Positions 10,925-37,540 of a stretch of 64,000 bases of DNA are shown here, in pieces. Position 1 is the stretch's first letter. Every line of letters starts with the position of its first letter. The notes under the pieces are model-generated. The model worked only from the letters and a program-made list of their open reading frames with translations, searched no databases and was not told where the DNA came from. The stretch spans positions 2,604,001 to 2,668,000 of the forward strand of contig NZ_CP073105.1 of the NCBI RefSeq assembly GCF_018138085.1, written 5' to 3'. The position numbers and the translations under genes were made by a program. Source of the DNA: Stutzerimonas stutzeri (lineage in GTDB: Bacteria > Pseudomonadota > Gammaproteobacteria > Pseudomonadales > Pseudomonadaceae).

Positions 10925-11003
10925 TGTCTGGAAATAAGGACACATTTCCATATTTCTGGACGATCACAACCTCGCTCCCTTCATATGTCCATTTTTCTGG
11001 ATA
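10925..11003. promoter_or_regulatory. Three activator boxes (TGTCC-N8-GGACA type) upstream of the TRAP operon
   Basis: Three 18-bp imperfect dyads: TGTCTGGAAATAAGGACA (10925-10942), TTTCCATATTTCTGGACG (10945-10962) and TGTCCATTTTTCTGGATA (10986-11003). They match TGTCC-N8-GGACA at 9, 8 and 9 of 10 arm positions and lie about 98, 140 and 160 bp before the predicted start of transcription, the normal range for sigma-54 activator sites. The same dyad occurs before bdhA, the exported esterase and the porin. Confidence 0.75.
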
Positions 11004-11066
11004 ACCGATCACCTTTCTGCGGCCAAAAAGCCTCTAGAACGGGGCATACAGCAGCTTCACGAACCC

Positions 11067-11082
11067 AGGCACAAAAACTGCT
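11067..11082 (+). promoter_or_regulatory. Sigma-54 (-24/-12) promoter of the TRAP operon
   Basis: AGGCACAAAAACTGCT has GG and GC separated by exactly 10 bp and closely matches TGGCAC-N5-TTGCA. Transcription should begin near 11093, about 100 bp before the dctP-like ATG. The activator boxes lie just upstream. Confidence 0.75.
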
Positions 11083-11192
11083 AGGTAATATCCGCAACGC
11101 GCCAGATCACCGGAACGAGAACGCTGCGGCGGCTCGTTCCGCGTCCCGGCTAGACCGGGCTGCATACCAAAACAACAAAAAAGGAATCTGTA

Positions 11193-12278
11193 ATGTCGAT
11201 CACCAAGAAGCTTTCCCGCCTCGCCTGCGCCATCGGCACCACCGCACTGCTCAGCGCGACACTGGTGAGCGCCAATGCCACCGCCGCCGAAAAGATCCGC
11301 TGGCAGGTTCCGCTGGCCTTCCCGTCGCACCTGATCGGCCTGACCACTCCCATCAAGCATCTGTCCGAATCGCTCAAGGCCATTTCCGGCGGCGACATCC
11401 AGCTGCGCTACTACGAACCCGGTGAGCTGGTGCCGCCGTTCGAAATCATGGATGCGGTCAGCAACGGCAAGTATCCGGCCGGCTACACCTGGATCGGCTA
11501 CGACCAGGGCACCATCCCGGCGTTGCCGCTGTACTCGGGCGCACCCTTCAACATGGAGCCGCCGGCGTACCTCGCCTGGTACTACGAGGGCGACGGCAAG
11601 AAGCTGCTCGAGGAAATCTACGCCGAACGCAACATCCACCCGATGCTGTGCAGCATCATCGGCCCGGAAGGCGCCGGCTGGTTCGCCAAACCGGTCGAGA
11701 AGCTGGAAGACTTCGACGGCCTGCGCATCCGCTTTGCCGGCATTGGCGGCAAGGTGCTGGAAAAGCTCGGCGCTTCGGTCACCATGATTCCGGGCGGCGA
11801 GATCTACCAGGCGCTGGAGCGCAAGACCATCGACGCCACCGAGTTCTCCCAGCCGGCGATCGACAAGATGCTGGGCCTGGACCAGATCATCAAGAACTAC
11901 ATCATGCCGGGCTGGCATCAGACGCTGACCACCTCGCACCTGCTGGTCAACAAGGGCGTCTGGGACAAGCTGGAGCCGCAAAGCCGCGCGCTAATCGAGA
12001 TGGGTTGCGAATCGGCGACGCTCAAAAGCTTCGCCGAAAGCGAGTGGGCGCAGCCGACCGCCTTGCGTGACTACGAGAAGCAGGGCGTGAAGGCGCAGGT
12101 TTTGCCGGAGCCGGTGCTGCGTGAACTGGAGCGCGTGACCAACGAAGTGCTGGACGAAATCGCCGCCAAGGATGAGATGTTCAACCGCGTCCTGACCAGC
12201 CAGCGCGACTTCATGAAGCATCATTCCATCTGGCACAGCAAAGGCTACCTGCCGCGCGATTTCTACAAGTACGACTGA
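11193..12278 (+). CDS. TRAP transporter substrate-binding protein (DctP family)
   Basis: Periplasmic solute-binding protein of a TRAP carboxylate transporter, 361 residues. Residues 1-32 form a Sec signal peptide (KK, hydrophobic TTALLSATLVSA, cleavage after NATAA). The mature protein shows family segments FAGIGGKVLEKLGASVTMIP (including the Arg-containing stretch just before it that binds the carboxylate) and GGEIYQALERKTIDATEFSQ, most like the 2-oxoacid/monocarboxylate (TakP-type) binders. The two membrane subunits follow on the same strand. With bdhA and its shared upstream motif nearby, 3-hydroxybutyrate is a reasonable substrate guess; lactate, pyruvate or another short acid remain possible. 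Confidence 0.9.
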   Translation: MSITKKLSRLACAIGTTALLSATLVSANATAAEKIRWQVPLAFPSHLIGLTTPIKHLSESLKAISGGDIQLRYYEPGELVPPFEIMDAVSNGKYPAGYTWIGYDQGTIPALPLYSGAPFNMEPPAYLAWYYEGDGKKLLEEIYAERNIHPMLCSIIGPEGAGWFAKPVEKLEDFDGLRIRFAGIGGKVLEKLGASVTMIPGGEIYQALERKTIDATEFSQPAIDKMLGLDQIIKNYIMPGWHQTLTTSHLLVNKGVWDKLEPQSRALIEMGCESATLKSFAESEWAQPTALRDYEKQGVKAQVLPEPVLRELERVTNEVLDEIAAKDEMFNRVLTSQRDFMKHHSIWHSKGYLPRDFYKYD

Positions 12279-12458
12279 CCGCAGCGTCAAGCCGGTGCCC
12301 CTGGGCGGGTCTCCCCCAGGTTCGAATGATCGGACAGGATGCGCAGCGGCGGTTTCGCTGCGCTTGCCCGCCCACACGAGCCCGCCCCGCCTTCCGGAGC
12401 ACTGGCCGCCCGATCAGGCCGTGCATGTATTTTCCAATTTCGGATCTCCGAGGTGGCC

Positions 12459-13073
12459 GTGTCCGCTCATCCCGTTTCCCCTAACGAAGCAGTGCCCGCC
12501 GCCCAAGCGGATGCACTGCCGCACAATCGATTGTCCTACTGGCTGGACAAGGCCCTGGTCGCGATCGGCGAAGCCAGCGCCTGGATATGGCTGCTGGTAC
12601 TGGCTGTGGTGTTGACCAACGTGTTCAGCCGCTTCGTGCTGTCGCGCGGCTCCATCGCCCTGGAAGAACTGTCCTGGCACCTGTTCGGCGCCGCCCTGAT
12701 GCTCGCCCTGGCCTACGCGGTAGTGCGCGACGATCACGTACGCGTCGATGTGCTGCGAGAGAAGTTCAGCCTGCGCAGCCAGGCCGTCATCGAGCTCCTG
12801 GCAATCGTCTTCCTGGCCTTGCCAGTGGTGGTGATGATGGTCGATGCGCTGGTGCCCTTCGCCTACCAGGCCTTCATATACGACGAGCGCTCCCAGGCAC
12901 CCAGTGGCCTGCCGCACCGCTTCATCTTCAAGAGTGTGTTGCCGCTCGGCCTGACGCTGTTGGCGCTGGCCCTGCTCTCACGCGCCAGTCGTTGCAGCAC
13001 GCTGTTGTTCAATTTTCCGCGGGTCTTCACGGCCCCGACGCATGACCGCGACCGCGGCCATTCGCAGCCCTGA
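12459..13073 (+). CDS. TRAP transporter small permease (DctQ family)
   Basis: Four-helix membrane subunit of the TRAP transporter, 204 residues from the chosen GTG. Transmembrane stretches include WIWLLVLAVVLTNVFSRFVL, LFGAALMLALAYAVV, AVIELLAIVFLALPVVVMMV and VLPLGLTLLALALL. The conserved EELSWHLFG motif of DctQ proteins is present. The GTG at 12459 (with another in-frame GTG 6 bp earlier) follows a weak GAGG; the frame is open further upstream but that part is not hydrophobic and looks non-coding. It ends 16 bp before the large permease. Confidence 0.85.
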   Translation: MSAHPVSPNEAVPAAQADALPHNRLSYWLDKALVAIGEASAWIWLLVLAVVLTNVFSRFVLSRGSIALEELSWHLFGAALMLALAYAVVRDDHVRVDVLREKFSLRSQAVIELLAIVFLALPVVVMMVDALVPFAYQAFIYDERSQAPSGLPHRFIFKSVLPLGLTLLALALLSRASRCSTLLFNFPRVFTAPTHDRDRGHSQP

Positions 13074-13089
13074 TGGAGTAGCCGTAATC

Positions 13090-14457
13090 ATGGGTCTGGA
13101 ACAAATTCTCGTCATCAGCATGTTCGCCACCTTCATGGGCCTGTTGCTGCTCGGCTTCCCGGTGGCCTGGTCGCTGGCTGGCATCGGACTGCTGTTCGCC
13201 GTGTTCGGCCATGTACTGGTCGAATATTTCGACGCCGATCTCTGGTTCACCTGGGACGGCACCATCGGCGTGCTGGATGCGCGCATCTACGGCATCGTCG
13301 CCAACGAACTGATGGTCGCGCTGCCGCTGTTCATTTTCATGGGCATCATGCTCGACCGCTCCGGCATCGCCGAGCGGCTGATGCACAGCCTGGTGCGGGT
13401 ACTTGGTCCGCTGCGCGGCGGCTACGCAGTGACCGTGGTGCTGGTGGGCATCCTGCTCGCGGCTTCCACCGGCATCGTCGGCGCTTCGGTGGCGCTGCTC
13501 GGCATGCTCTCCATCGGCCCGATGCTGCAAGCCAAGTACAACAAGAGCCTGGCCGTCGGCACTGCCTGTTCGGTCGGCACCCTGGGCATCCTGATTCCGC
13601 CGAGCATCATGCTGGTGTTGATGGCCGACCGCCTGGGTACGTCCGAGGCCTCGGTGGGCAAGCTGTTCATGGGCGCGTTGATCCCCGGCATGTTGCTGGC
13701 ATTGATGTACATCCTCTACATCGTCGTGGTGTCCTGGCTGAAGAAGGACTTCGCCCCCGCGCCGGCCAACCGCTCGAAGCTCGACGGACGTGCGCTGCTC
13801 GATGTGTTCTGGGCCGTGGTGCCGCCCTTCGTACTGATCCTCGCGGTGCTTGGCTCGATCTTCTTCGGCATCGCCACTACTACCGAAGCCTCGGCGGTCG
13901 GCGCCGTTGGCGCGGTGATCATGGCCGCCTGCAGCCGCAAGCTGAACCTCGCGGTTCTCAAGGAAGCGCTGTACCAGACCAGCCGCACCTCGGCGTTTAT
14001 CTTCGGCATCTTCATCGGCGCCACGGTATTCGCCGCCGTGCTGCGCGGCCTGGGTGGTGATGACGTGATCCGTTCGGCGCTGACCGGCCTGCCCTTTGGC
14101 CAGACCGGCGTGCTGCTGACCGTGCTGTTCATTACCTTTCTGCTGGGGTTCTTCCTGGACTGGGTGGAGATCACGCTGATCATCCTGCCGCTGGTCGCGC
14201 CGGTGCTGTTCTCCATGGGCGTCGATCCGCTGTGGTTCGCGATTCTCTTCGCGCTCTGCCTGCAGACCTCCTTCCTGACCCCGCCGGTGGGCTTCGCGCT
14301 GTTCTACATCAAGGGCGTCTGCCCGCCGGAAGTGACCACGCGCGACGTTTACCTGGGCGTGTTGCCCTACATCCTGATTCAACTGCTGGGGCTGGCGCTG
14401 GTGTTCTTCTTCGCGCCGCTGGCGACCTGGCTGCCGAATGAGGTGTATGCCCAGTAA
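13090..14457 (+). CDS. TRAP transporter large permease (DctM family)
   Basis: Ion-coupled channel subunit of the TRAP transporter, 455 residues with about 12 membrane helices. Family features are LLLGFPVAWSLAGIGLLFAV near the N-terminus, ASTGIVGASVALLGMLSIGP, CSVGTLGILIPPSIMLVL and the C-terminal LTPPVGFALFYIKG. The ATG at 13090 has GGAG upstream; an in-frame ATG at 13042 overlaps the dctQ-like gene and would add 16 polar residues, so I prefer 13090. It completes a dctP-Q-M operon driven by the sigma-54 promoter at 11067-11082. Confidence 0.93.
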   Translation: MGLEQILVISMFATFMGLLLLGFPVAWSLAGIGLLFAVFGHVLVEYFDADLWFTWDGTIGVLDARIYGIVANELMVALPLFIFMGIMLDRSGIAERLMHSLVRVLGPLRGGYAVTVVLVGILLAASTGIVGASVALLGMLSIGPMLQAKYNKSLAVGTACSVGTLGILIPPSIMLVLMADRLGTSEASVGKLFMGALIPGMLLALMYILYIVVVSWLKKDFAPAPANRSKLDGRALLDVFWAVVPPFVLILAVLGSIFFGIATTTEASAVGAVGAVIMAACSRKLNLAVLKEALYQTSRTSAFIFGIFIGATVFAAVLRGLGGDDVIRSALTGLPFGQTGVLLTVLFITFLLGFFLDWVEITLIILPLVAPVLFSMGVDPLWFAILFALCLQTSFLTPPVGFALFYIKGVCPPEVTTRDVYLGVLPYILIQLLGLALVFFFAPLATWLPNEVYAQ

Positions 14458-14567
14458 AGGCCAGCTTTACAGGCCTATTTCAGCCTTTGCGCGGCGTACC
14501 GGCTGCCTTGCTCCGAGCAGCCGGCGCCTCCCATAATCTGGCGATCTCAACATGACTGAGCTTTTCC

Positions 14568-16058
<1,491 letters not shown>

Positions 16059-16203
16059 CGCGCCCGCTGCGAAAGGTCTTGTGGCTCGCGCAGCCGGTGG
16101 CAGCGCTCGAGCCTCTCCGTCCGCCTTATCGCTGGCAATTTCAACGCTGCGCCCCGGAGCGAGCCGAAGCGTAACCCCGCTTCGCCCACCCCGCGCTCCG
16201 TCG

Positions 16204-16974
16204 CTACTGCGCCAGCCAGCCGCCGTCGACGTTCCAGGCAACGCCACGGACCTGACGCGCGGCATCGCTGCACAGGAACACCGCCAGTTCGCCCAGCTGT
16301 TCCGGCGTGACGAAATCCAGCGACGGTTGCTTTTCCATCAGCAGTTCACGGGTCGCGCGGATCGGGTCGCCGTGAGTCTGGGCCTTGCTGTCGATCTGCT
16401 GCTGCACCAGCGGCGTCAGCACCCAGCCGGGACAGAGCGCATTGCAGGTCACACCCGTGGTGGCGGTTTCCAGCGCAACGGTCTTGGTCAGGCCCACCAG
16501 GCCATGCTTGGCCGCCACATAGGCGGCTTTCTGCGCCGAGGCCACCAAGCCATGGACCGAGGCGACATTGATGATTCGCCCCCAGTTGCGCTCACGCATC
16601 CCGGGCAGGGCCAGGCGCATGGTGTGGAACGCAGAGGAAAGATTGATCGCGATGATGCTGTCCCAGCGCTCGACCGGAAAGGTCTCGATCGGCGCCACGT
16701 GCTGGATGCCGGCGTTGTTGACCAACACATCGACCGCGCCGAACTCGCGCTCGGTCTGGCCGACCAGATCGGCGATCTGATCCGCATCGGACACGTCTGC
16801 CGGGTGATGCATCACCCGCGTGCCGTGTGCCGAGACGCGCTCGAGCGCGGCGTCCACATCGCCGAATCCATTGAGCATCACATTGGCGCCGGCCTCGGCC
16901 AGCTTGCAGGCGATACCCAGGCCGATGCCACTGGTCGAGCCGGTGATCAATGCGGTCTTGCCTTTGAGAATCAT
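16204..16974 (-). CDS. bdhA: 3-hydroxybutyrate dehydrogenase (short-chain dehydrogenase)
   Basis: NAD-dependent oxidation of (R)-3-hydroxybutyrate to acetoacetate in the cytoplasm. 256 residues, the normal size for BDH1-type bacterial enzymes. The Rossmann nucleotide motif TGSTSGIG is at residues 11-18, NNAG at 86-89, and the catalytic Ser139, Tyr152 and Lys156 lie in INVASVHGLVASAQKAAYVAAK. The C-terminal DGGWLAQ and the lid region ELLMEKQPSLDFVTPEQLGE are typical of 3-hydroxybutyrate dehydrogenases. It converges on the activator gene, and its own upstream region of 681 bp carries a sigma-54 promoter and three dyads. The acetoacetate made would feed the CoA-transferase pairs. Confidence 0.93.
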   Translation of the reverse strand: MILKGKTALITGSTSGIGLGIACKLAEAGANVMLNGFGDVDAALERVSAHGTRVMHHPADVSDADQIADLVGQTEREFGAVDVLVNNAGIQHVAPIETFPVERWDSIIAINLSSAFHTMRLALPGMRERNWGRIINVASVHGLVASAQKAAYVAAKHGLVGLTKTVALETATTGVTCNALCPGWVLTPLVQQQIDSKAQTHGDPIRATRELLMEKQPSLDFVTPEQLGELAVFLCSDAARQVRGVAWNVDGGWLAQ

Positions 16975-17051
16975 GACGGGCTCCGATGGCTACGAAGGGC
17001 TACCAGGCCAGCGCTACGAACGGTGCCGGGTTGACCATCAGCATAGCGGCT

Positions 17052-17067
17052 CGCAGGACCGGTGCCG
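17052..17067 (-). promoter_or_regulatory. Sigma-54 (-24/-12) promoter of bdhA
   Basis: On the minus strand CGGCACCGGTCCTGCG has GG-N10-GC spacing and a near-consensus GGCAC -24 element; the -12 element (CTGCG) is weaker. The predicted start lies near 17041, leaving a leader of roughly 67 bases before the bdhA ATG. Confidence 0.6.
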
Positions 17068-17289
17068 CGCGGAGCCGCGGCCGGGCTCGACGACGCGAGT
17101 ATTGGCGTCACGCCATTGGAAGGTGAGTCATTCATGGATATTCCTTATTGTTCTGATCGCGGCACGCACCGCTAGCCCGCTTCGATCCGCGACGGCCAGC
17201 AAGCGAGACACTGACAAGCACAGCGAAAGCCGTGCCAGACTGGATCGGGCATTGGTAAATACGCTCTCGCCTGCACAGGGCGCGCCCCG

Positions 17290-17405
17290 TGTCGCTGCCA
17301 GGACAGCATTGGCCAGAGCAATACGCTCTTCGCCATGTCCGCACCTCTGGACATGCTCACCACGCGACACACCTTCACGAACAGCCATGTCCTGCGTGCT
17401 GGACA
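17290..17405. promoter_or_regulatory. Three TGTCC/GGACA dyads upstream of bdhA
   Basis: TGTCCGCACCTCTGGACA (17336-17353) and TGTCCTGCGTGCTGGACA (17388-17405) match TGTCC-N8-GGACA perfectly, with centres 52 bp apart. A 16-bp variant with a spacer two bases shorter, TGTCGCTGCCAGGACA, is at 17290-17305. They lie about 255-355 bp before the predicted bdhA start of transcription, far but workable for a looping sigma-54 activator. Apart from these sites and the promoter I see no gene in the 681 bp between bdhA and the KGG-protein gene. Confidence 0.75.
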
Positions 17406-17655
17406 GCGCTGTGCCCCCCTCGGCTTCGGCGACGGGCATCCAAGTATGTTGGGCCAGGGCTTTTTCGTTATCGGCGCCACGGTTAGCGCCGTCCGGTTAG
17501 TTGTCGGATCTGAACTACCGCTCATCGTCGATCGATAAGTGGCTAGAACTCTGATGGGCTCTTATTTTCTGAGTAATTAGGCGACGGGCAATGCAGCGGA
17601 TCGCATTATTTGTCGTCTCGTTAATATCGACTTTCAAGACAGAAGGAGTATCTCC

Positions 17656-18000
17656 ATGGCTGACAAGAAAGAAGGCATGAGCGTTAACGAAGCGGGACGC
17701 AAAGGTGGTGAAGCAACCTCTGCAACGCATGACAAAGAGTTCTACCAAGAGATCGGCAGTAAAGGTGGACAGAACAGTGGCGGCAACTTTGCCAACGACC
17801 CGGAACGCGCTTCCGAGGCCGGTCGCAAAGGCGGCCAAAATAGCGGCGGCAACTTCGCCAATGACCGCGAACGCGCTTCCGAAGCCGGCCAAAAAGGCGG
17901 CCAGAGCAGCGGCGGCAACTTCGCCAACGACCGAGAAAAAGCGTCTGAAGCCGGCCGTAAAGGCGGTGAGCACAGCCACGGCGGTGGCCGTAACAGCTGA
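17656..18000 (+). CDS. KGG-repeat general stress protein
   Basis: Small, very hydrophilic, glycine-rich protein of 114 residues built from four KGG-motif units (stress_3/KGG family, like YciG and conidiation protein 10). The motif appears as AGRKGGEA, GSKGGQNSGGNFAND, AGRKGGQNSGGNFAND and AGQKGGQSSGGNFAND, ending AGRKGGEHSHGGG. The middle units are nearly identical at the DNA level, with a period of about 60 bp. Such proteins accumulate in stationary phase or osmotic stress; the exact role is unknown. A strong ribosome-binding site (AGAAGGAG) precedes it, and a terminator at 18022-18052 follows. Confidence 0.88.
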   Translation: MADKKEGMSVNEAGRKGGEATSATHDKEFYQEIGSKGGQNSGGNFANDPERASEAGRKGGQNSGGNFANDRERASEAGQKGGQSSGGNFANDREKASEAGRKGGEHSHGGGRNS

Positions 18001-18021
18001 TCGAGTCTGGTGCAGCAACCA

Positions 18022-18052
18022 GGGCGAAGGCTGAGCTTTCGCCCTCTCTTTT
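18022..18052 (+). terminator. Rho-independent terminator after the KGG gene
   Basis: Stem GGGCGAA / TTCGCCC with a short loop, followed by TCTCTTTT. It lies between the KGG gene and the DUF2795 gene, so the second gene probably depends on partial readthrough or its own promoter. Confidence 0.7.
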
Positions 18053-18065
18053 AGAGGAGGCTCCT

Positions 18066-18275
18066 ATGACACGAGGTGTTGGCGGTGAGTCATCCGCAAA
18101 CGTCACGACGTTTCTCAAAGGGATCGACTATCCCGCGCGGAAAGAGCAACTGGTCAAGCACGCACAGCAAAATGGCGCCGAATCGTCGGTAATCGATGTG
18201 CTGCAAAAAATGACGGATCAGGAATACGACAACATGGCCGATGTTATGAAAGGTTATGGCGAAACACGAAACTAG
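18066..18275 (+). CDS. DUF2795 family small protein
   Basis: 69-residue protein with the DUF2795 pattern: VTTFLKGIDYPARKEQLVKH, AQQNGAESSVIDVLQKM, then a YDNMADVMKG tail. The function is unknown; family members are often near stress genes. An excellent ribosome-binding site (AGAGGAGG) overlaps the end of the preceding terminator. No signal peptide or membrane segment. Confidence 0.85.
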   Translation: MTRGVGGESSANVTTFLKGIDYPARKEQLVKHAQQNGAESSVIDVLQKMTDQEYDNMADVMKGYGETRN

Positions 18276-18336
18276 CCGATTGTGAAGACGCTTCGTTAAA
18301 TGAAAGCGAGCATGAGTTAATTAGTGTTCGTTTATA

Positions 18337-18370
18337 AATGCCAAGCCGGAATAACCAGCTTGGCATTTTA
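18337..18370 (+). terminator. Rho-independent terminator after the DUF2795 gene
   Basis: Perfect 10-bp stem AATGCCAAGC / GCTTGGCATT around an 11-base loop, followed by TTTA. It closes the stress-gene pair. A second perfect hairpin (CACGGGTTAC / GTAACCCGTG, 18421-18448) lies between it and the convergent pgm gene. Confidence 0.75.
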
Positions 18371-18420
18371 TCTTTGGCGACTGCTTTAAACGTCCAGCGA
18401 CCGGTTTTAATCACCACTTA

Positions 18421-18448
18421 CACGGGTTACGCATCTATGTAACCCGTG
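18421..18448. repeat. 10-bp perfect inverted repeat downstream of pgm
   Basis: CACGGGTTAC and GTAACCCGTG around an 8-base loop. There is no T-run on either side. It may be the 3'-end structure of the pgm mRNA or a protein site. Confidence 0.45.
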
Positions 18449-18504
18449 CGATCAAGAGCGGGCGCCCTTCGCGGTTCGCCCTTGCGCGGCGAACCATGTC
18501 GGTA

Positions 18505-27932: not shown

Positions 27933-28028
27933 CCACGGAGGTTACCGCGACGATCCTCCGACCGGCACGGCGACGCCGATCCATGGGCGATCGCCAGCCG
28001 GTGTCGGCCCCTTGAGCGAGACGATCTG

Positions 28029-29052: not shown

Positions 29053-29877
29053 TCACGCCGTCAGCGCAGCCTGCCATTCGCGGGGGCTGGCCCCGGTCTT
29101 GCGACGGAAGGCACGGGCCAGCGCCGACGGACTCTCGTAGCCGACCTCATCGGCGATTAGCGCAATCGGTCGGCCTTCACGCAAGCGCTTCTGCGCCAGA
29201 CTGATCCGCCAGCTGGTGAGGTAATCGGCGGGAGTCTGCCCCACCACCGCCCGGAAGCTGGCGGCAAAGCTGGCCCGTGACATGTTCGACTCGGCCGCCA
29301 GCTCGGCCACCGACCAGGCGCGCTCGGGTTCGGCATGCATCAGGGTAATCGCTCGCGCCAGGCGCAGATCCGCCAACCCGGCCATCATGCCCGAGCTCAT
29401 CGTCTGGCTGGCCATCAGGTGGCGCAGCATCTGCACCATCAGCAACTCGAACAGACGGCCCATGACCGCTTCGCGGCCACAGTAGCTGGCGACCGCCTCA
29501 TCGAAGAGCCAAGTCAGCGCCCCATCGAGGATCGGGGCTTCGGCGACTGGCAGCAACAGCACATCCGGTAACGCTGCGGCCAACGGATTGTTGGTGCCAC
29601 CGTCGAAACGCAAGGTTGCGCAGACCAGCCGCGCGCCTTCCGCTTCATCGGCAAGCATCCGGTGACGATATGGTCGCGGAAACACCATCACCGTCGGTTC
29701 GGTCAGCCGAACCTCGCTGTTGTCCTCCAGCCGCAAGGTCATGCTGCCCTGACGCAATACGTGGATGTAGCCCACCTGGTCGGCGGTCTCGAACGCCGCG
29801 ACGCCGCAAAGCGCCCCGCTGTGATACAGGCCCGCATGCATGCCGAAGTGACACAGCAGGCTGGATAGACGATCCAT
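29053..29877 (-). CDS. AraC-family transcriptional regulator (Cupin_6 type)
   Basis: 274 residues: N-terminal cupin sensor (GYIHVLRQGSMTLRLEDNSE, VMVFPRPYRHRML) and C-terminal double HTH (WSVAELAAESNMSRASFAAS, PIALIADEVGYESPSALARA). Divergent from the exported alpha/beta hydrolase at 30069 with a 191-bp shared region, so control of that gene is likely. Effector unknown. Confidence 0.9.
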   Translation of the reverse strand: MDRLSSLLCHFGMHAGLYHSGALCGVAAFETADQVGYIHVLRQGSMTLRLEDNSEVRLTEPTVMVFPRPYRHRMLADEAEGARLVCATLRFDGGTNNPLAAALPDVLLLPVAEAPILDGALTWLFDEAVASYCGREAVMGRLFELLMVQMLRHLMASQTMSSGMMAGLADLRLARAITLMHAEPERAWSVAELAAESNMSRASFAASFRAVVGQTPADYLTSWRISLAQKRLREGRPIALIADEVGYESPSALARAFRRKTGASPREWQAALTA

Positions 29878-30068
29878 GGTTACGCCTCGTTTAGACGATC
29901 GGTTGCATATTCTCGACTATTTGGATCCTTAACGATACGTCGACTGCGCATTATGTCCCTGCACCTGATGCACAGCGCTACGAAGCCTGAGCCGATCAGA
30001 GAGGTGCCCGGTTCGCCGGTAGCGCCAGCGTCCCCTAATCCGAGCCAACTCACGAAAGGTACAACGTC

Positions 30069-30863
30069 ATGACCACCACCAAAACCCGCAACACTATCGC
30101 CGCCACCCTCCTCGCTGTTTCCACACTGGGCAGCGCGACGAGCTTCGCAGCCGAGAAACCGACGGTCATCCTGGTCCACGGCGCCTTTGCCGAATCGGCG
30201 AGCTGGAACGGCGTAGCCTCACGGCTGATCGACCAGGGCTACCCGGTGGTCGCCGCCGCAAACCCGCTGCGCGGGGTGGCCAACGATGCCGGATATGTCT
30301 CCGACATCATCGAGCACACCGCCGGTCCCATCGTGCTGGTCGGCCACTCCTACGGTGGCAGCGTCATCACCAACGCGGTCAAGGGCAGCAGCAAGGTCAA
30401 GGCGCTGGTCTATGTGGCCGCCTTCGCACCCGCGATTGGCGAGAGCGCCGCGGCACTGGCCGGCCAGTTTCCCGGCAGTACGCTCGGCCCGACCCTGGCT
30501 GAACCGGTGCAGCTCGGCGACGGCAACCAGGACCTGTATATCCAGCAGGACAAGTTCGCCGAGCAGTTCGCGGCCGATGTCGCGCCGGCCGAAGCGGCGC
30601 TCATGGCTGCGACCCAGCGCCCGGTCACGGCGGCCGCGCTGAACGAAGGCAGCCAGCAGAGCGCCTGGGATTATGTGCCTTCCTGGTTCGTCTACGGCAC
30701 CGCGGACAAGAACATCCCGGAAGCTGCGCTGAAGTTCATGGCCGAGCGCGCGGGTTCGCGCAAGACGCTGACCATCCCCGGCGCTTCCCACGTGGTGATG
30801 ACCTCGCACCCCGACGAAGTCGCCGCACTGATCGGCGAAGCTGCCGAAGCCACCAATCAATAA
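30069..30863 (+). CDS. Exported alpha/beta hydrolase
   Basis: 264 residues. Residues 1-28 are a Sec-type signal peptide (TKTR, then AATLLAVSTLGSATSFA). The mature part is a compact alpha/beta hydrolase of the ester-salicylate/hydroxynitrile-lyase-like branch: VILVHGAFAESASWNGVASR, nucleophile elbow GHSYGGS with Ser94, acid region YGTADKNIP and a C-terminal His in GASHVVMTSHPDE. It should act in the periplasm on a small ester or amide; substrate unknown. Likely controlled by the divergent AraC regulator. Confidence 0.87.
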   Translation: MTTTKTRNTIAATLLAVSTLGSATSFAAEKPTVILVHGAFAESASWNGVASRLIDQGYPVVAAANPLRGVANDAGYVSDIIEHTAGPIVLVGHSYGGSVITNAVKGSSKVKALVYVAAFAPAIGESAAALAGQFPGSTLGPTLAEPVQLGDGNQDLYIQQDKFAEQFAADVAPAEAALMAATQRPVTAAALNEGSQQSAWDYVPSWFVYGTADKNIPEAALKFMAERAGSRKTLTIPGASHVVMTSHPDEVAALIGEAAEATNQ

Positions 30864-30968
30864 CCCGCAGGCATCCCGCGCCGGTCGACGAGCTCACCTC
30901 GCCGGCCGGCGTTGCCGTGTTACCGGCAAATGAGCCTGCATGGGCGCCTTCACCAAGACCGACCGAAC

Positions 30969-31862
30969 TCACAACGAGCCCGCGATGTGCTCCCTCAGCC
31001 ATCGATGCGCCGGGTCGCGATGACAGCGTTCATGCCACAGCATTGCCATTTCGTAGCCCGGCACCTCGACCGGCGGCTCGACCATCCGAAGCGCGGCATT
31101 GCCCCGTACCAGGCGCCACGGCAACATCGCGACCAGATCAGTGCTTGCCAGAGCAGCCATCACGAACAGGAAATGCGGCACCGACAGCGCCACCCGACGC
31201 GACAGCCCGGCGGCCCGCAGCACGCCGTCGGTCACGCCGCTGAAACCACCGCCATCCGGCGACACCACGACATGCGCAAGCTCGCAAAAGCGTGCGATCG
31301 ACGGCGCCGTTTTCAAGTCCGGATGCCCCGCTCGTCCGGCCAGTACGTAGCGTTCGGCGAACAGCACGCGGCGATGCAATCCCAGTGGTGCGTCATCGCT
31401 GGTATGGAAGGCCAAGTCGATGTCGCCCTGCTCCGCCTGCTTGGCAATGCGGGTCGGTGCCATCTCGACGACCGCCAATCGCGCGCCGGGCGCCTGGAGA
31501 CGAAGGTCCGCCAGTGCCGGCAGCACGATGGTCGACTCGGCGTAATCGGTCGCGGCGACACGCCAGGTATGGGTAGCGTCAGCGGGATCGAAGGCTGCCG
31601 AAGGCGACACCACCTGGCGCAGCGCCTCGAGCACCTGACGTAGCGGTTCGCGCAATTCCTGCGCTTTCGCCGTTGGCCGCATGCCGCGCGGACCGGGGAG
31701 CAGCAGCGGATCCGCGAAGAAGTCGCGCAGCTTGGCCAGCTGCACGCTTACCGATGGCTGAGCCAGATTCAGGCGCTGCGCGGCACGCGTCACGTTCTGC
31801 TCGTCCAGTAGCACATCGAGCGTCAGCAAAAGATTGAGGTCGAGTTTGCGGAGATTGCTCAT
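30969..31862 (-). CDS. LysR-family transcriptional regulator
   Basis: 297 residues from the ATG giving MSNLRKLDLNLLLTLDVLLD, the usual N-terminus of this LysR subgroup; an ATG 15 bp upstream is possible too. HTH segment EQNVTRAAQRLNLAQPSVSV; the rest is a periplasmic-binding-like effector domain. It is divergent from the quinone reductase-like gene at 31949, about 90 bp away, and probably regulates it. Confidence 0.9.
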   Translation of the reverse strand: MSNLRKLDLNLLLTLDVLLDEQNVTRAAQRLNLAQPSVSVQLAKLRDFFADPLLLPGPRGMRPTAKAQELREPLRQVLEALRQVVSPSAAFDPADATHTWRVAATDYAESTIVLPALADLRLQAPGARLAVVEMAPTRIAKQAEQGDIDLAFHTSDDAPLGLHRRVLFAERYVLAGRAGHPDLKTAPSIARFCELAHVVVSPDGGGFSGVTDGVLRAAGLSRRVALSVPHFLFVMAALASTDLVAMLPWRLVRGNAALRMVEPPVEVPGYEMAMLWHERCHRDPAHRWLREHIAGSL

Positions 31863-31948
31863 GACAATACCAGGCATTTCGAGTATTCATTTTTAACATA
31901 GCTGAGCAGGTTTCATCCTCTTCCCTCCAACCCAAGGGAGCTCAGCTC

Positions 31949-32731
31949 ATGAACATTCTTATCGTCTATGCCCATCCGGAACCCCGCTCGTTGAACGGCT
32001 CGCTGAAGGATTTCTCGGTCCAGCGACTCGAAGCGGCGGGCCATCAGGTTCGGGTATCGGATCTGTACGCAATGCAATGGAAGGCCTCGGTCGATGCCGA
32101 GGACGACCTCGACCACCCACCAGGCGCACGCTTCGAACCGTCGCTCAGCTCCAGGCAGGCATTCGAACGCGGCAGGCAGCGAGCGGACATCGCCGACGAG
32201 CAGGAGAAATTGCGCTGGGCCGACGCCGTGATTCTGCAATTCCCGCTGTGGTGGTTCTCGATGCCCGCCATTCTTAAAGGCTGGATCGATCGGGTGTACG
32301 CGTATGGCTTCGCCTATGGCGTCGGCGAACATTCCGATACGCACTGGGGCGACCGTTACGGTGAAGGCATGCTCGCCGGGAAACGCGCCATGCTGGTCGT
32401 AACCACGGGTGGCTGGGACTCGCACTACAGCCCTCGCGGCGTCAACGGACCGATCGAGGACCTGCTGTTCCCGATACAGCACGGCATCCTCTATTACCCG
32501 GGCTTCGATGTCCTGCCGCCGTTCGTCATCTATCGAACCAGCCGGATGGACGAGGACCGCTACGCAACCGTCTGCCACCACCTCGGTGAGCGTCTCGATA
32601 CGCTGTTCAGCACGGCCCCGATCGCCTTCCGCCCGCAGAACGCCGGTGCCTATGCCATTCCTGCGCTCACCCTGCGCGATGAGTTCGCGCCCGGCGAAGC
32701 GGGTTTCCAGATACATGTCGCCCGGGAATAG
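31949..32731 (+). CDS. NAD(P)H-dependent oxidoreductase, flavodoxin-like fold
   Basis: 260-residue enzyme of the NAD(P)H dehydrogenase (quinone)/MdaB/KefF-like family. It starts with the FMN/FAD-binding MNILIVYAHPEPRSLNGSL, followed by VSDLYAMQWKASVDAEDD, ADAVILQFPLWWFSMPAILK and GWIDRVYAYGFAYG, the classic order of this fold. Probably a two-electron reducer of quinones or similar electrophiles in the cytoplasm. The divergent LysR is the likely regulator. Start with GGGAGC upstream. Confidence 0.9.
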   Translation: MNILIVYAHPEPRSLNGSLKDFSVQRLEAAGHQVRVSDLYAMQWKASVDAEDDLDHPPGARFEPSLSSRQAFERGRQRADIADEQEKLRWADAVILQFPLWWFSMPAILKGWIDRVYAYGFAYGVGEHSDTHWGDRYGEGMLAGKRAMLVVTTGGWDSHYSPRGVNGPIEDLLFPIQHGILYYPGFDVLPPFVIYRTSRMDEDRYATVCHHLGERLDTLFSTAPIAFRPQNAGAYAIPALTLRDEFAPGEAGFQIHVARE

Positions 32732-33001
32732 CAGGTCTGGCCGCGCTCCGTCAGGCGACCGCCGGTGCTCATCGACGGCTCGGTCGCCGCATCGCCAAGG
32801 GCGCATCGGTCTCAGCGCGTAACGCTGGAACCGTCTCGGACGGGCTAAACAAAAGCGATGCCCTACCGATAACCCGGTATGCCAGGCGAGACTCACGTTG
32901 CGGTGCGTCGCGCGGGTATCTGTCAACCGGCTCCCACACCGCCTCGTTCAACGCGGCGGGTGCTGAGGTCGGTATCGCCCACCCGTAAACGGAGCTGCAC
33001 C

Positions 33002-33418
33002 GTGCAACTGATCGATAACCGAGCGCTGATCAACGATGCCCTGCGCCAATCTGCCGAGCTAACCGGCGGGCGTTTCGATCATCGCTATTGGTTGAGCAAG
33101 GTGACGGACGTGAAGCTGCTGATCATCTCCAAGCCGGAGGTGCTGTTCGACCTGTCGGTCAAGGTCTACATCCCGTTGCCGGCTGGGCAGAAAGCGCCGC
33201 TCACCTACGGCGACGGCTGGTTCAACTGGCACTTCCTGGGCAGCAAGAGCGCCGTGGTCACCATCGCCCGGGAAATCCTCACCATCGCCCTGCGCAACCG
33301 CAAGGCCAACTCGGCGGTGCTGCAGGCCTGGCTCACGGAGCTGGTGTCGTTCAAGCACAGCGAACACACCATCGCCGTGCTCGAGCCTGAGCCGCAGCAG
33401 GACCTGGCCGGCCGCTAG
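33002..33418 (+). CDS. Hypothetical protein, 138 residues
   Basis: I do not recognise the family. From the GTG at 33002 (GGAG seven bases upstream) the product is soluble, without signal peptide, membrane helix or cysteine cluster, with predicted beta strands (DVKLLIISKPEVLFDLSVKV, GWFNWHFLGSKSAVVTIARE). The reading frame is open farther upstream but with unlikely composition. Its stop codon overlaps that of the convergent antiporter gene in the shared CTAG at 33415-33418. The codon use matches the surroundings. The 270 bp before it contain no other gene that I can see. Confidence 0.65.
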   Translation: MQLIDNRALINDALRQSAELTGGRFDHRYWLSKVTDVKLLIISKPEVLFDLSVKVYIPLPAGQKAPLTYGDGWFNWHFLGSKSAVVTIAREILTIALRNRKANSAVLQAWLTELVSFKHSEHTIAVLEPEPQQDLAGR

Positions 33419-35055
33419 GCCGGCTCGCCCGAACCGAGGGCCGCCTCCTCGTAATCCAGCTCCTGCAGCAGCGTTTGCAACATCTGCTCGTCGATCACGT
33501 AGCGTTTGCGCATGCGGTATAGCTCCTTGCGCTGCACCGCGATGGCCTGCATACGAATATCGCGTTCCAGCGCCATCGTTTGACGCGCCTGGTTGGTGCG
33601 TTCGTGGTGGTCCATCAACGCCTCGATGTCCTTGCGGTAGGACTCGGTGACCCGCGCGGTCACCTCGCTGCGCAGCAGCATCTGGTCGGGATCTTCGACC
33701 GGGTTGGCCTGTTTCCAGTTTTCCAGCCAGCTGACGGCAGCCTGCGCCGCAGTTCGGCGAGCTTTCTTCAGTTCCTCGCGGTGCTGTTCCACGTCGTTGT
33801 TGGGCAGCTTCTTGAGGAAATAGGGAATGCCCAGGGCACCGACCAGCAGCGACAGGATGATCACCGCGGCGGCAAGAAAGATCATCAGGTCGCGGCCCGG
33901 GAAGGGGGTATCGCCGATCATCAGCGGAATCGACAACACGCCAGCCAGGGTGATGGCCCCACGCACGCCGGCCACCGCGCTCAACGCCGAGAACAGTGGA
34001 AGCGGCTTGGGCTGCACCGTCTTGCCGAGCAGACGGAGTACCCGCGCCTCGCTCCAGTGATAAGCGAAGACGAACAGGAAGCGAATCACCAGCAGCAGCG
34101 CCATGATGGCCAGCGCACTGAACACCAGCATCGGCATGCTGTAGGTTTCGTGGCCTGCCGCCGCCCAGACGCGCTCGACGATGCGCGGGAACTGCAGCCC
34201 GAGCAGCAGGAACACCAGGCCATTGAAGCTGAAATCGAGCATCTCCCAGATGCTGCGATTGAGGATGCGTGTGCTGGTCTTGACCGGCAACATGTCGATC
34301 CGGCTCTGGATCATGCCCGCGGCCACCGCCGACAGGATGCCGGACATCCCGGCATGCTCGGCCAGAAAAAACGCCGCGAAAGGCAGCAGCAGAATCATCA
34401 CGACGTAGGTCGACGGATCGAACAGGTTGCGCGCCGTCATCCATTGCTTGGCCTTGCCGACCGCCCAGCTCAGGCCAGCGCCGATGGCCAGCCCGCCGAG
34501 GGCGATGACGAAGAATTCGCCGGTCACGCTGGCCATCGAGAAAGAGCCGGTGATCGCTGCCGCCAATGCGAACTTGAAGGACACCAGGCCAGTGGCGTCA
34601 TTCATCATCGCCTCGCCTTCCAGCTGATGCGCCATGTGCCGCGGCAACCGGCCCTGGGCGATGGCGATCACCGCCAGGGCGTCAGTGGGCGACAGGATCG
34701 CCGCCAGCGCGAAACTCGCCCCGAGCGGAATGGCGGGCAACAGCCAGTGGATGAAGTAACCAACCACCACGAGGATGACCAGCACCAGCAGCAGCGACAT
34801 CGCGCTCATCTCGGCGCCGTGCTCGGTGAATTCGCGCTTGGGGATTTTCCAGCCGTCGTAGAACAGCAACGGCGGAATGAACAGCAGCATGAAGATTTCA
34901 GGTCGCAGCTCGACCCCCATGCCGAACGGCGGAAGCGCCAGCACACTGCCCATGATGATCTGCAAAATGGGTAACGGGAGAGGTACGACGTTGGCCAGAA
35001 CACGGCTTGCTCCCACTGCGAGTAACAGCAGGAAGATCAGGTAAAGCGTTTCCAT
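33415..35055 (-). CDS. Na+/H+ antiporter, CPA1 family
   Basis: 546 residues: about 12 membrane helices in the first 400 residues and a charged cytoplasmic tail of about 150. Characteristic segments are LPTDALAVI-like SPTDALAVIAIAQGRLP, the ion-site motif MMNDATGLVSFKFALAAAI and AGVRGAITLAGVLSIPL. Exchanges Na+ (or K+) for H+ across the inner membrane. The ATG at 35055 begins the first hydrophobic helix (METLYLIFLLLLAVGAS); 46 more upstream codons are hydrophilic and rejected. Confidence 0.92.
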   Translation of the reverse strand: METLYLIFLLLLAVGASRVLANVVPLPLPILQIIMGSVLALPPFGMGVELRPEIFMLLFIPPLLFYDGWKIPKREFTEHGAEMSAMSLLLVLVILVVVGYFIHWLLPAIPLGASFALAAILSPTDALAVIAIAQGRLPRHMAHQLEGEAMMNDATGLVSFKFALAAAITGSFSMASVTGEFFVIALGGLAIGAGLSWAVGKAKQWMTARNLFDPSTYVVMILLLPFAAFFLAEHAGMSGILSAVAAGMIQSRIDMLPVKTSTRILNRSIWEMLDFSFNGLVFLLLGLQFPRIVERVWAAAGHETYSMPMLVFSALAIMALLLVIRFLFVFAYHWSEARVLRLLGKTVQPKPLPLFSALSAVAGVRGAITLAGVLSIPLMIGDTPFPGRDLMIFLAAAVIILSLLVGALGIPYFLKKLPNNDVEQHREELKKARRTAAQAAVSWLENWKQANPVEDPDQMLLRSEVTARVTESYRKDIEALMDHHERTNQARQTMALERDIRMQAIAVQRKELYRMRKRYVIDEQMLQTLLQELDYEEAALGSGEPA

Positions 35056-35278
35056 GAGGCGGAGGGCTCTTGCTAGATGTGAAGACGGCGCATAGGACCG
35101 GAACGCGTGTGACAAAAGTATAGTCAGGCGTTTGGGTATAGCCGGCTCGTTCGTCAGATCCGTTGGAACTAACGCCACGAGGCCGGTTGTCACTGCATGT
35201 AGCGTCAGACGTAGCGCGTCCAGCCACCGTCACGCGCTGGCGCTGGTTTTCTGTCGCTTATCGCCGCCGTTTATCGGA

Positions 35279-35348
35279 TGTCCACCCGTGCGGACAATCT
35301 GTCCAGTCAGGCAGGCATTTCGGCAGTTCCTGTCAAGTTGCCAGGACA
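35279..35348. promoter_or_regulatory. Two TGTCC/GGACA dyads upstream of the exported esterase
   Basis: TGTCCACCCGTGCGGACA (35279-35296) is a perfect TGTCC-N8-GGACA, and TGTCAAGTTGCCAGGACA (35331-35348) matches 9 of 10 arm bases; centres are 52 bp apart, as in the bdhA pair. Another half-site TGTCC begins at 35300. The remainder of the 521-bp gap between the antiporter and esterase genes contains the promoter below and no gene that I can see. Confidence 0.65.
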
Positions 35349-35457
35349 TCGTTCTGCCCAGTCAGTTTGCACCGGCACACGGCTCGGAGCGGCTGCCATG
35401 CGGTATCGCCGGGGTAGCGCGACCGTTCATCCGGCGTTCGGCTGCCGCCGGGGTGGC

Positions 35458-35473
35458 TGGCATGGGTTTGGCT
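35458..35473 (+). promoter_or_regulatory. Possible sigma-54 promoter of the esterase gene
   Basis: TGGCATGGGTTTGGCT keeps GG-N10-GC spacing; one mismatch in the -24 element and one in the -12 element. It would start transcription near 35484, about 93 bp before the ATG. Weaker than the TRAP and porin promoters. Confidence 0.45.
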
Positions 35474-35576
35474 GTGGGCCTTCTGGCATCAAGCCCGGCG
35501 CTGGGGTTCCCTGCCCGGGTGCGCTCGCCTCGCGGTGTTGGCCGCAGGCAGAACAACAACAAGAAGGAAGCCCTCC

Positions 35577-37295
35577 ATGAATGCACCTCGCATTGCCCGC
35601 GCCAAAGGCTCACGGCTGCTGCTGGCCGCCCCGGTCCTGCTTACGGCTGGCCTGGCCGAACCCATTTTCGCCGCCGGTTGCAACGAACTGTCCAGCATCC
35701 AAGTGCCAGCGTCCGCTATCGCCTTGCCGAGTACCGGCGCGCGCGTGACCTCGGCCACGCCGGTGCCGGCCGGAGGCACTCCACCGCAGGCCTTCGGCCC
35801 CTATTGCGACGTGACCGCAGAGATTACCCCGGTCGATCCGAGCGCGCCGACGATCAGGATGCGCCTTGTATTGCCCGAACGCTGGAACAGCAAAGCGATG
35901 ATGTACGGCGGCGGTGGCTACAACGGCACCGTGCCCAATGTGGCCGGTAACGTTCCGGCAGGCCCGGTCGACCAGCCCACGCCACTGGGCCGCGGCTACG
36001 CGGTATTCGCCAGCGACTCGGGCCATGTCGCCAATCCGCTCAGCCCCGGTGATTTTGCCTGGAACGAGGAGGCGCTCACCAACTACGCGCACGATGCGCT
36101 GAAGAAAACCCGTGATACGGCGATCTACCTGATCCAACAGCGCTACGGCCAAGCGCCGTCGCGCAGCTACTTTGCCGGCGGCTCGACCGGCGGACGCGAA
36201 GCCCTCGCGGTGGTGCAACAGTGGCCGACGGATTTTCAGGGTGCGATCGCCCTCTATCCTGCCTGGAACGCGGCAGCCCTGGACCTGCAGTTCGGCCGCA
36301 TCACCCGCGCGCTGGCCGCACCCGGCGCCTTCCCCAGCCTTGAAAAACGCGCGGCATTGTTGGAAGCCGCGATGCAGGCCTGTGACGGGCTCGATGGGGT
36401 CCGCGATCGGGTGATCAGCAACCAGGCAGCCTGCAATGCGTGGTTCGATCCAGCGAAAGCCAAGCTCAATGGCCGTCCGCTGCGCTGCCCGGCAGGTGCC
36501 GATACCGGCGATTCCTGCCTGTCGGACGCACAGATCCACGCCTTGAAGGTGTTCGATACGCCGATCCGGTTCAGCCAGCCGCTGGCCAGTGGAGAACGCG
36601 GTTATCCGGGCTTCAACACCTGGGGCACCGATCTGGGCCGACCCGGCGAGGGGTTGCAACTGATCGTCAACCGGCTGGGCCTCAACACCTTGCAGCCCGA
36701 CTATCCGATGCCCGTACACGGCACCGGTTTCGCCGAGGGTGCCCCCTACCACTCAGGCTTCTGGGATGAGTGGGTGCGTCACTTCGTGACGCGCAACCTG
36801 GCGTTCAACTCACTGACGCTGGGCCCGACCAACCTGGGCCCGTGGCAGGCGCGGGTCGATGCGCTGTCGCTGCGCCAGGACGTCAATCAGACGGATCTTT
36901 CGTCATTCGTGGCCAACGGCGGCAAATTGCTGGTCGCCCACGGCACCTCGGATCAGCTGGTGAGTACCCGTGCCAGTGCCGATTACTATCGGCGAGTGCA
37001 GCACGACATGGGCAAAGGGCAGACTCGCCAGTTCATGCGCTACTACGAGATTCCCGGCTACGCACATGCCGCCAGTACCGTCTTCAATGCCGCCTGGGAT
37101 TCGTTGACCGCCCTGGAGAACTGGGTCGAGCGCGGCATTGCGCCCAAGCGGCAAACGGTTACCGACGCCGTCGCGGTACCCGGCCGTACCCGGCCGCTCT
37201 GCGAGTACCCGGCCTGGCCGAAATACAAGGGCCACGGCGATGTGAACGCGGCGGCCAGCTTCGTCTGCGTGAAGAGCCAGAAAGGCCGGCACTAG
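35577..37295 (+). CDS. Exported tannase/feruloyl esterase-family hydrolase
   Basis: 572-residue alpha/beta hydrolase of the tannase family (feruloyl esterases, tannases, MHETase relatives). An N-terminal signal peptide (hydrophobic LLLAAPVLLTAGLAEPIF) ends at FAAGC; Cys35 makes a lipoprotein conceivable, though the lipobox is poor. The nucleophile elbow is GGSTGG (Ser203), with Asp459 in HGTSDQLVS and His497 in PGYAHAAS. The two cysteines that normally flank the catalytic Ser and His (CS-D-HC motif) are both replaced (Gly, Ala), so the usual disulfide is absent. Upstream dyads and a sigma-54-like promoter link it to the TRAP/bdhA group; the substrate may be an aliphatic hydroxyacid ester or oligomer and not a phenolic ester. 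That is inference. Confidence 0.85.
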   Translation: MNAPRIARAKGSRLLLAAPVLLTAGLAEPIFAAGCNELSSIQVPASAIALPSTGARVTSATPVPAGGTPPQAFGPYCDVTAEITPVDPSAPTIRMRLVLPERWNSKAMMYGGGGYNGTVPNVAGNVPAGPVDQPTPLGRGYAVFASDSGHVANPLSPGDFAWNEEALTNYAHDALKKTRDTAIYLIQQRYGQAPSRSYFAGGSTGGREALAVVQQWPTDFQGAIALYPAWNAAALDLQFGRITRALAAPGAFPSLEKRAALLEAAMQACDGLDGVRDRVISNQAACNAWFDPAKAKLNGRPLRCPAGADTGDSCLSDAQIHALKVFDTPIRFSQPLASGERGYPGFNTWGTDLGRPGEGLQLIVNRLGLNTLQPDYPMPVHGTGFAEGAPYHSGFWDEWVRHFVTRNLAFNSLTLGPTNLGPWQARVDALSLRQDVNQTDLSSFVANGGKLLVAHGTSDQLVSTRASADYYRRVQHDMGKGQTRQFMRYYEIPGYAHAASTVFNAAWDSLTALENWVERGIAPKRQTVTDAVAVPGRTRPLCEYPAWPKYKGHGDVNAAASFVCVKSQKGRH

Positions 37296-37358
37296 CACCG
37301 CCTCGTCGCCGCGTCACGGCCAGCATCAGATGGCGCGGCGGCGGAAGCGGCAACCAAG

Positions 37359-37418
37359 GGTCCAGCAGGCTGGACAGTCTCCAGCCTGCCTGACCGAGCA
37401 TGTCCGGCCAGGCAGACA
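37359..37418. promoter_or_regulatory. Two TGTCC/GGACA-type dyads upstream of the porin gene
   Basis: GGTCCAGCAGGCTGGACA (37359-37376) and TGTCCGGCCAGGCAGACA (37401-37418) each match TGTCC-N8-GGACA at 9 of 10 arm positions. Their centres are 42 bp apart and lie about 140-185 bp before the predicted start site, the same arrangement as upstream of the TRAP operon. Confidence 0.65.
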
Positions 37419-37524
37419 ACCCTCCCCTCCACATACGCCGTAAGCGTCCTGCGCTCGCTGCGGCGCAAGCTCTAGCTTGCGGTCTCCCACCCAACGCCAG
37501 CCAAAGACGATGCACCGTCCAGCC

Positions 37525-37540
37525 TGGCACGGCATTCGCT
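37525..37540 (+). promoter_or_regulatory. Sigma-54 (-24/-12) promoter of the porin gene
   Basis: TGGCACGGCATTCGCT has a perfect TGGCAC -24 element, 10-bp GG-GC spacing and TCGCT at -12. It is the best sigma-54 match found here. Transcription would begin near 37551, 44 bp before the ATG. Confidence 0.78.

Follow-up and report, generated by a model that had tools for sequence, protein, structure and literature searches.

A candidate sigma-54 regulon for the use of extracellular 3-hydroxybutyrate in Stutzerimonas stutzeri

Results

The stretch of DNA analysed here (the window, 64,000 nucleotides of the Stutzerimonas stutzeri genome) carries genes for a TRAP (tripartite ATP-independent periplasmic) transporter, with DctP, DctQ and DctM all present, a sigma-54 activator, the 3-hydroxybutyrate (3HB) dehydrogenase bdhA, a Tannase-family esterase and an OprD-family porin (Table 1). 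Sigma-54 promoters accompanied by repeated copies of the dyad TGTCC-N8-GGACA stand upstream of dctP, bdhA, the esterase gene and the porin gene, and these four units probably form one regulon for harvesting 3HB from outside the cell.

Table 1. Genes, dyads and promoters of the candidate regulon in the window (dyad mismatches counted over the ten arm bases).
Feature	Position	Strand	Basis
TRAP operon upstream dyads	10925-10942 (1 mismatch), 10945-10962 (2), 10986-11003 (1)	+	dyad scan
TRAP operon sigma-54 promoter	11067-11082	+	AGGCACAAAAACTGCT, GG-N10-GC class
DctP-family solute-binding protein, TakP-like	11193-12278	+	domain search and sequence comparison
DctQ small permease (start codon probably further inside the frame)	12339-13073	+	domain search
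DctM large permease	13042-14457	+	domain search
Sigma-54 activator: PAS, AAA+ (Sigma54_activat) with GAFTGA, Fis-type helix-turn-helix (HTH)	14568-16058	+	domain search and motif
bdhA, 3HB dehydrogenase	16204-16974	-	above TIGR01963 cut-off
bdhA sigma-54 promoter	17222-17237	-	TGGCACGGCTTTCGCT, GG-N10-GC class
bdhA dyads	17336-17353 and 17388-17405 (both perfect)	-	dyad scan
Esterase dyads	35279-35296 (perfect), 35300-35317 (2 mismatches), 35331-35348 (1)	+	dyad scan
Esterase sigma-54 promoter	35458-35473	+	TGGCATGGGTTTGGCT, GG-N10-GC class
Tannase/MHETase-fold esterase, 572 aa	35577-37295	+	PF07519, 368 bits (cut-off 29.8)
Porin dyads	37359-37376 (1 mismatch), 37401-37418 (1)	+	dyad scan
Porin sigma-54 promoter	37525-37540	+	TGGCACGGCATTCGCT, GG-N10-GC class
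OprD-family outer-membrane porin	37595-38854	+	PF03573, 511 bits (cut-off 25)

Across the four upstream regions there are eight dyads with no or one mismatch and two weaker copies (10945 and 35300). The sigma-54 consensus has GG and GC ten bases apart in a TGGCAY-N-TTGCW-like context; all four promoters fit it, and their position is kept in the congeneric loci examined. A composite scan of both strands of the whole window, for a sigma-54-like promoter with at least two dyads 40-190 bp upstream, used a promoter score of our own making, built on this consensus, with a threshold of 5.25. Exactly four composite promoters were returned, before dctP, bdhA, the esterase gene and the porin gene, and the same scan gave none in 300 dinucleotide-shuffled windows and none with the dyad arms reversed. 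A preliminary description of this DNA had named these four regions, each with a promoter and repeated dyads, and the mechanical scan recovers the same four; for bdhA its range of 17052-17405 holds the promoter and both dyads, although the promoter itself lies well inside the point at which that range began.

Perfect dyads are expected by chance 0.0575 times per window (400 shuffles), in agreement with the value of about 0.06 given earlier. Three perfect copies had been counted; three do stand at the regulon promoters, but the window holds four, the last of them (12532-12549) within the dctQ frame. This copy was set aside as an operator, as it lies in a reading frame without a composite promoter, and it is probably a coding coincidence. 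When up to two mismatches were allowed, 51 dyads were observed against 27.1 (standard deviation 4.7) expected, and loose single dyads therefore carry little weight.

The same holds for the genome as a whole, where single dyads with at most one mismatch number 222, against 121 for the reversed pattern. The first 30 isolated copies listed (7 perfect and 23 with one mismatch, taken in position order rather than at random, the window's four perfect copies not among them) include 29 within long frames rich in G+C at third codon positions, which is what coding means here rather than a gene call. All 30 lack both a second dyad within 120 bp and a promoter-like sequence at the expected distance. With 222 in the genome and the 30 examined amounting to background, counts of single dyads were rejected as evidence.

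The sites were sought in 56 Stutzerimonas genomes (designated by G numbers) with three patterns, each stricter than the composite scan of the window; these took the place of the weight matrix that had been suggested. The strict paired-dyad pattern matched 30 places in 29 genomes, with none for its reversed control. Their coordinates put 29 of the 30 before a porin, bdhA, esterase or TRAP gene or the CoA-transferase gene of G020, and the place in G064 was confirmed to precede dctP; the sole exception, in G009, resembles response-regulator coding sequence by eye. The dyad-plus-promoter pattern gave 65 places in 41 of the 56 genomes, compared with 6 in the control, and 59 of the 65 were assigned to regulon genes from the matched string and coordinates. 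Thirty of these 65 loci were inspected with tblastn: 27 adjoin a gene for GntP, BdhA, the esterase or the porin, and none of these four was found beside the site in G059, G065 and G001, the last on a contig that ends at the site and with a matched string of the GntP type. The long-spacing pattern matched in 38 of the 56 genomes (control 3), several matches looking like repeated coding sequence. In the window's own genome the pair and dyad-plus-promoter patterns each find bdhA only, and the long-spacing pattern finds nothing. A dyad spread through the genome away from sigma-54 promoters had been named as an argument against a regulon; single copies are indeed widespread, whereas paired dyads are not.

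Upstream regions were then compared over the congeneric loci examined, which represent part of the 56 genomes and, owing to kinship, do not count as independent events. At least one dyad precedes the TRAP operon in 23 of 29 genomes (at least two in 18), bdhA in 18 of 22 (14), the esterase gene in 39 of 40 (34) and the porin gene in 30 of 31 (21); all four GntP loci, which were chosen because the pattern matched them, have at least two. A sigma-54-like promoter scoring at least 5 precedes TRAP in 29/29 genomes, and at the chosen promoters reversed-arm dyads were found in no gene set. The four genomes that lack dyads at bdhA (G014, G020, G036 and G061) have a GntP-bdhA arrangement with the dyads before GntP instead. 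G020 is also the one missing a porin dyad; a CoA-transferase gene (FadX-like, L195 4912-6477) lies between its esterase and porin genes and is itself preceded by a perfect dyad and a sigma-54 promoter. The single esterase miss is G025.

The collected sites comprise 155 distinct sequences among 211, with informative arms and a nearly uninformative mid-spacer. Start-to-start spacings between dyads (n = 97) fall only at 18-22, 31-33, 41-42, 49-53 and 60-61 bp, with a best period of 10.05-10.15 bp, and none of 2000 random sets of 17 spacings was as periodic as the 17 distinct spacings observed. Such regularity is consistent with sites phased on the DNA helix.

Gene order was examined in 17 congeners chosen for the closeness of esterase to activator. 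The order TRAP-activator-esterase-porin is found in 13 of them (including G020 with its inserted gene); in G021 the contig stops before the porin, and in G005, G025 and G029 TRAP is outside the stretch examined. In the window's genome the esterase lies about 20 kb from the activator and TRAP genes, and the shared sites were therefore spotted before the congener neighbourhood was known. In G002 bdhA and the porin gene point away from each other, and dyads lie between the two. Of 36 congeners searched for the activator, 32 have it, and the esterase occurs in 45 of the 56 genomes, the window's included. Over 37 Stutzerimonas genomes both occur in 31, neither in 4, the activator alone in 2 and the esterase alone in none (Fisher p 2.3e-4, uncorrected for kinship). 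The congeners without an activator are G008, G009, G022 and G031, and the dyad-plus-promoter pattern matches none of them.

Genes for degrading polyhydroxybutyrate (PHB) carry the same kind of site in some relatives. A PF10503 PHB depolymerase above the cut-off is present in 3 of the 56 Stutzerimonas genomes, with two more below it, and the one of the three that was scanned is above the TIGR01840 and NF050058 cut-offs. In all three congeners with a depolymerase above the PF10503 cut-off the gene is preceded by dyads and a promoter, with TGTCCAGCGTAGCGGACG followed about 20 bp on by TGTCTGGAAATCCGGACG and then by TGGCACAACATGCGCA.

Outside the genus, a TRAP search of 341 genomes of the order gave 17 matches, and 11 of these loci were examined. 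In nine (G055, G134, G175, G223, G236, G284, G304, G359 and G389), from two other families (f20 and f43), TRAP is accompanied by an activator of 49-52% identity, with at least two dyads between the two, by a promoter scoring at least 5.25 and by an acetoacetyl-CoA synthetase gene; at the other two, G119 and G390, no activator, synthetase or dyads were found. Identity of the TRAP binding protein reaches 82-88% in seven of these genomes and 50-51% in G223 and G359, and six of the nine have a 3HB-dehydrogenase-type gene. In G055 and G359 an intact 3HB-oligomer hydrolase gene with dyads and a promoter upstream lies beside the activator. This hydrolase family was found in none of the 56 Stutzerimonas genomes and in none of 14 control genomes with a tool that detects it in G055, G359 and G223. 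The G223 gene (L278 5640-7039) is split in two, in an activator-TRAP locus that otherwise looks intact.

Only one sigma-54 activator had been noted in the window, and a six-frame search agrees, since the single GAFTGA-type signature lies inside the activator gene. HbcR (PA2005) of Pseudomonas aeruginosa reportedly governs 3HB use together with RpoN, according to a 2015 study. The window system resembles it in the PAS-AAA+-HTH architecture of the activator, a sigma-54 promoter, bdhA as a probable target and a probable 3HB physiology. Reading the window activator as HbcR itself is nevertheless not supported. Its identity is about 50% to the Pseudomonas activator whose gene adjoins GntP-bdhA-AACS (acetoacetyl-CoA synthetase), which we took as HbcR by synteny only. 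In the tree the Stutzerimonas and Pseudomonas activators form separate clades, each with full support, and the deepest forks are weakly supported or long-branched, so our claim is limited to this separation. Two Stutzerimonas genomes carry both kinds, their second activators (G025, L190 7888-9246; G029, L191 7821-9224) grouping with the Pseudomonas clade; one of these two adjoins an AtoE-like transporter gene. Where the window has TGTCC-N8-GGACA, all five Pseudomonas loci have GTCTC-N6-GAGAC dyads before the promoter (at most two mismatches in 12 arm bases), and the recognition helix reads GLGRSTLYKKM in Pseudomonas and GISRASLYSKL in the window activator. The predicted targets of the window system also differ in including TRAP, the esterase and the porin. 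Orthology with HbcR was therefore rejected, and the clade split together with the different site places the activator in a separate lineage of the HbcR family.

Neighbourhoods of further relatives were taken from a single-sequence activator search that gave 80 loci, of which 23 (L031-L052 and L066) were used; L053-L056 entered the tree as distant rows, and many matches are generic sigma-54 activators. Dyad sites stand before bdhA and linked ketone-body genes. Nine other relatives have varied TGT-rich dyads by eye (for example TGTTC-, TGTCG- and TGTCT-type). At L031, L033, L036, L037, L040, L046 and L051, different dyads starting with TGT were noticed at the corresponding place downstream of other activators of the family. 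The pattern is as if the DNA site of this activator family drifted while its position stayed.

The esterase had been described as an exported member of the tannase family. Its family is confirmed well above the cut-off, and export is suggested by an N-terminus that resembles a signal peptide by eye. Tannases and feruloyl esterases have a CS-D-HC motif with a disulphide, and the window protein lacks both cysteines. Its closest solved relatives are MHETase, in sequence and in fold, and feruloyl esterases; a structure model (mean predicted local distance difference test score, pLDDT, 78) served for fold comparison only. With MHETase of Ideonella sakaiensis it shares the whole fold (Foldseek E 3.5e-36, template-modelling score 0.74), GxSxG and the Asp and His, but it is only 26% identical, and the residues beside the catalytic Ser and His are Gly and Ala where MHETase has Cys. 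Among the esterase and 120 of its 3257 matches listed, all 121 have the catalytic Ser, Asp and His, and Cys occurs at neither CS-D-HC place in any. These 121 proteins look like a Tannase-family branch without the two cysteines.

No match to the 3HB-oligomer hydrolase family PF10605 or to PF10503 was obtained at E 0.001, and the esterase scores 19.3 bits against the PHB-depolymerase model NF050058 (cut-off 150). It shares with PF10605 hydrolases and extracellular PHB depolymerases (PhaZ) the kind of promoter that these have in some relatives, but belongs to PF07519. A search of 369 genomes of the class found it only in the window's genome; the protein database holds homologues about 61-70% identical in Burkholderiales such as Aquincola, Variovorax and Cupriavidus.

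Discussion

We read the four units as one regulon, tied to the activator and serving 3HB, because the sites are conserved, the gene order recurs, activator and esterase co-occur and, in relatives, the dyads precede PHB-depolymerase, 3HB-oligomer-hydrolase and CoA-transferase genes; the phasing of the sites and their presence before GntP-bdhA genes in some relatives are likewise observed. The best explanation as a whole, and a probable one, is a sigma-54 regulon of four promoters with which the cell harvests extracellular 3HB. Taken by parts, the regulon is very probably real and its role in 3HB use is well supported; the substrates of the esterase and the porin are ones that we infer. The earlier proposal is partly supported: such a regulon, with the esterase and porin as members, is upheld by sites, order and co-occurrence, and reading the activator as HbcR itself is not. 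In the proposed path of esterase, porin, TRAP, bdhA, CoA-transferases and thiolase, the first four do share the type of promoter, but the window's CoA-transferase and thiolase genes have no composite promoter and are therefore not counted as members.

In the proposed mechanism the activator would probably sense cytoplasmic 3HB or a closely related metabolite, bind the helically phased dyads and drive sigma-54 transcription. The exported esterase may release 3HB from its dimers and oligomers or from other esters of it, the OprD porin would admit the product, the TRAP transporter would take up 3HB with high affinity, and BdhA would oxidise it to acetoacetate. The presence of a porin among the members would suit the uptake of small esters and that of free 3HB equally.

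Several points weigh against this interpretation. Binding by the activator and transcription of the regulon are predicted from DNA and protein sequence. The activator-less G009 has one match to the pair pattern and one to the long-spacing pattern, and TRAP dyads are absent at threshold in 6 of the 29 genomes (G003, G006, G007, G019, G027 and G028; in G006 a pair of dyads lies at a greater distance upstream). By both structure and sequence the esterase is nearer to MHETase and feruloyl esterases than to known 3HB hydrolases, and the binding protein is closest to keto-acid binders. The PHB-depolymerase dyads have one and two mismatches, and the three upstream regions are 96% alike and therefore amount to about one observation. 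No PF10503 PHB depolymerase was found in the window's genome, other depolymerase types not having been searched for.

The exchange of 3HB-oligomer hydrolase and esterase in one slot is the main reason for reading the esterase, by analogy, as a 3HB-ester hydrolase. Tentatively, the esterase may represent a cysteine-free tannase/MHETase-fold branch acting as a secreted or periplasmic 3HB-dimer or oligomer hydrolase, in the place that PF10605 holds in some Marinobacter-type genomes, and paired with the OprD porin for 3HB or short oligomers. If so, many Stutzerimonas without a PF10503 depolymerase would live on PHB fragments freed by other microbes. A real regulon whose esterase acts on some other ester (an aromatic one or that of a short-chain hydroxy acid), with a product that merely co-induces and is served by the porin, is somewhat unlikely. 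The nature of the best solved relatives would suit that, as would an esterase in 45 of 56 genomes beside a PF10503 depolymerase in so few (3/56 above the cut-off); yet the esterase promoter shares the sites of bdhA in 39/40 genomes, and the slot beside the activator is filled in G055 and G359 by an intact, dyad-fronted hydrolase of a family found in 0/56 Stutzerimonas.

Instead of 3HB, the TRAP transporter might carry acetoacetate or a 2-oxo acid, which we consider improbable. The window DctP belongs to family 7 and aligns best with keto-acid binding proteins of the TakP type (E 1e-54), and three f43 genomes pair TRAP with acetoacetyl-CoA synthetase, with no 3HB dehydrogenase in the stretch examined. 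The genomic company of the window protein, in contrast, points to 3HB or acetoacetate, and six f20 genomes have the order TRAP, 3HB dehydrogenase, acetoacetyl-CoA synthetase, with the 3HB-oligomer hydrolase alongside in three (one split).

As activator binding is a prediction and such a genome has other sigma-54 activators, another regulator could bind the dyads, the neighbouring activator being incidental. This is very unlikely: the activator adjoins dyad-bearing promoters in the Stutzerimonas loci examined and in 9 of the 11 TRAP loci outside the genus, the dyad-plus-promoter pattern matches none of the four activator-less congeners (apart from the G009 matches to the other two patterns), and the Stutzerimonas/Marinobacter-type loci differ from the Pseudomonas loci in site type and recognition helix together. 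That the dyads arise by chance or from GC content, with no regulon at all, is next to impossible, for the genome-wide excess of single dyads (222 against 121) consists, where sampled, of copies in reading frames without partner or promoter, and composites in the window (4 against 0 in shuffles), conservation across the genus and the pair pattern (30 places against 0) all go the other way.

A four-unit 3HB regulon of this kind would provide one testable gene set leading from extracellular ester to central metabolism. It would put forward a TRAP system as a candidate for 3HB uptake and the esterase as a possible new subfamily of hydrolases acting on bioplastic fragments, and would exemplify an activator family that switches its DNA site with the physiology kept. 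In the open-access literature we found nothing on this dyad, on a 3HB TRAP system under sigma-54 or on this esterase, which is weak evidence as subscription papers lie mostly outside it. According to PMC10130141, hbtABC of Ruegeria pomeroyi was the only confirmed bacterial 3HB uptake system as of 2023; it shares with the window transporter the latter's proposed role in 3HB uptake. The genus includes a known PHB degrader (P. stutzeri PhaZ, PMC7142370). On HbcR, PMC13390443 cites the PA2005 work, PMC10482368 has the P. fluorescens protein activated by (R)-3HB, and PMC8694187 predicts an autoinducer-type ligand for the PAS domain of the P. aeruginosa protein.

Other observations

Elsewhere in the window, at 46548-51838, a LysR-like regulator gene is followed by those for two subunits of a CoA-transferase, for a thiolase and for an AtoE-like transporter (regulator and transporter judged by eye); no dyad promoter is present there. 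A gene of the AtoE type directly precedes the dyad-controlled GntP-bdhA operon in some congeners. Past the bdhA dyads, 17656-18000 is a frame for a small repetitive KGG-motif protein, stress-protein-like by eye. In G020 a small membrane-protein frame (L195 8915-9358), DoxX-like by eye, lies between activator and esterase.

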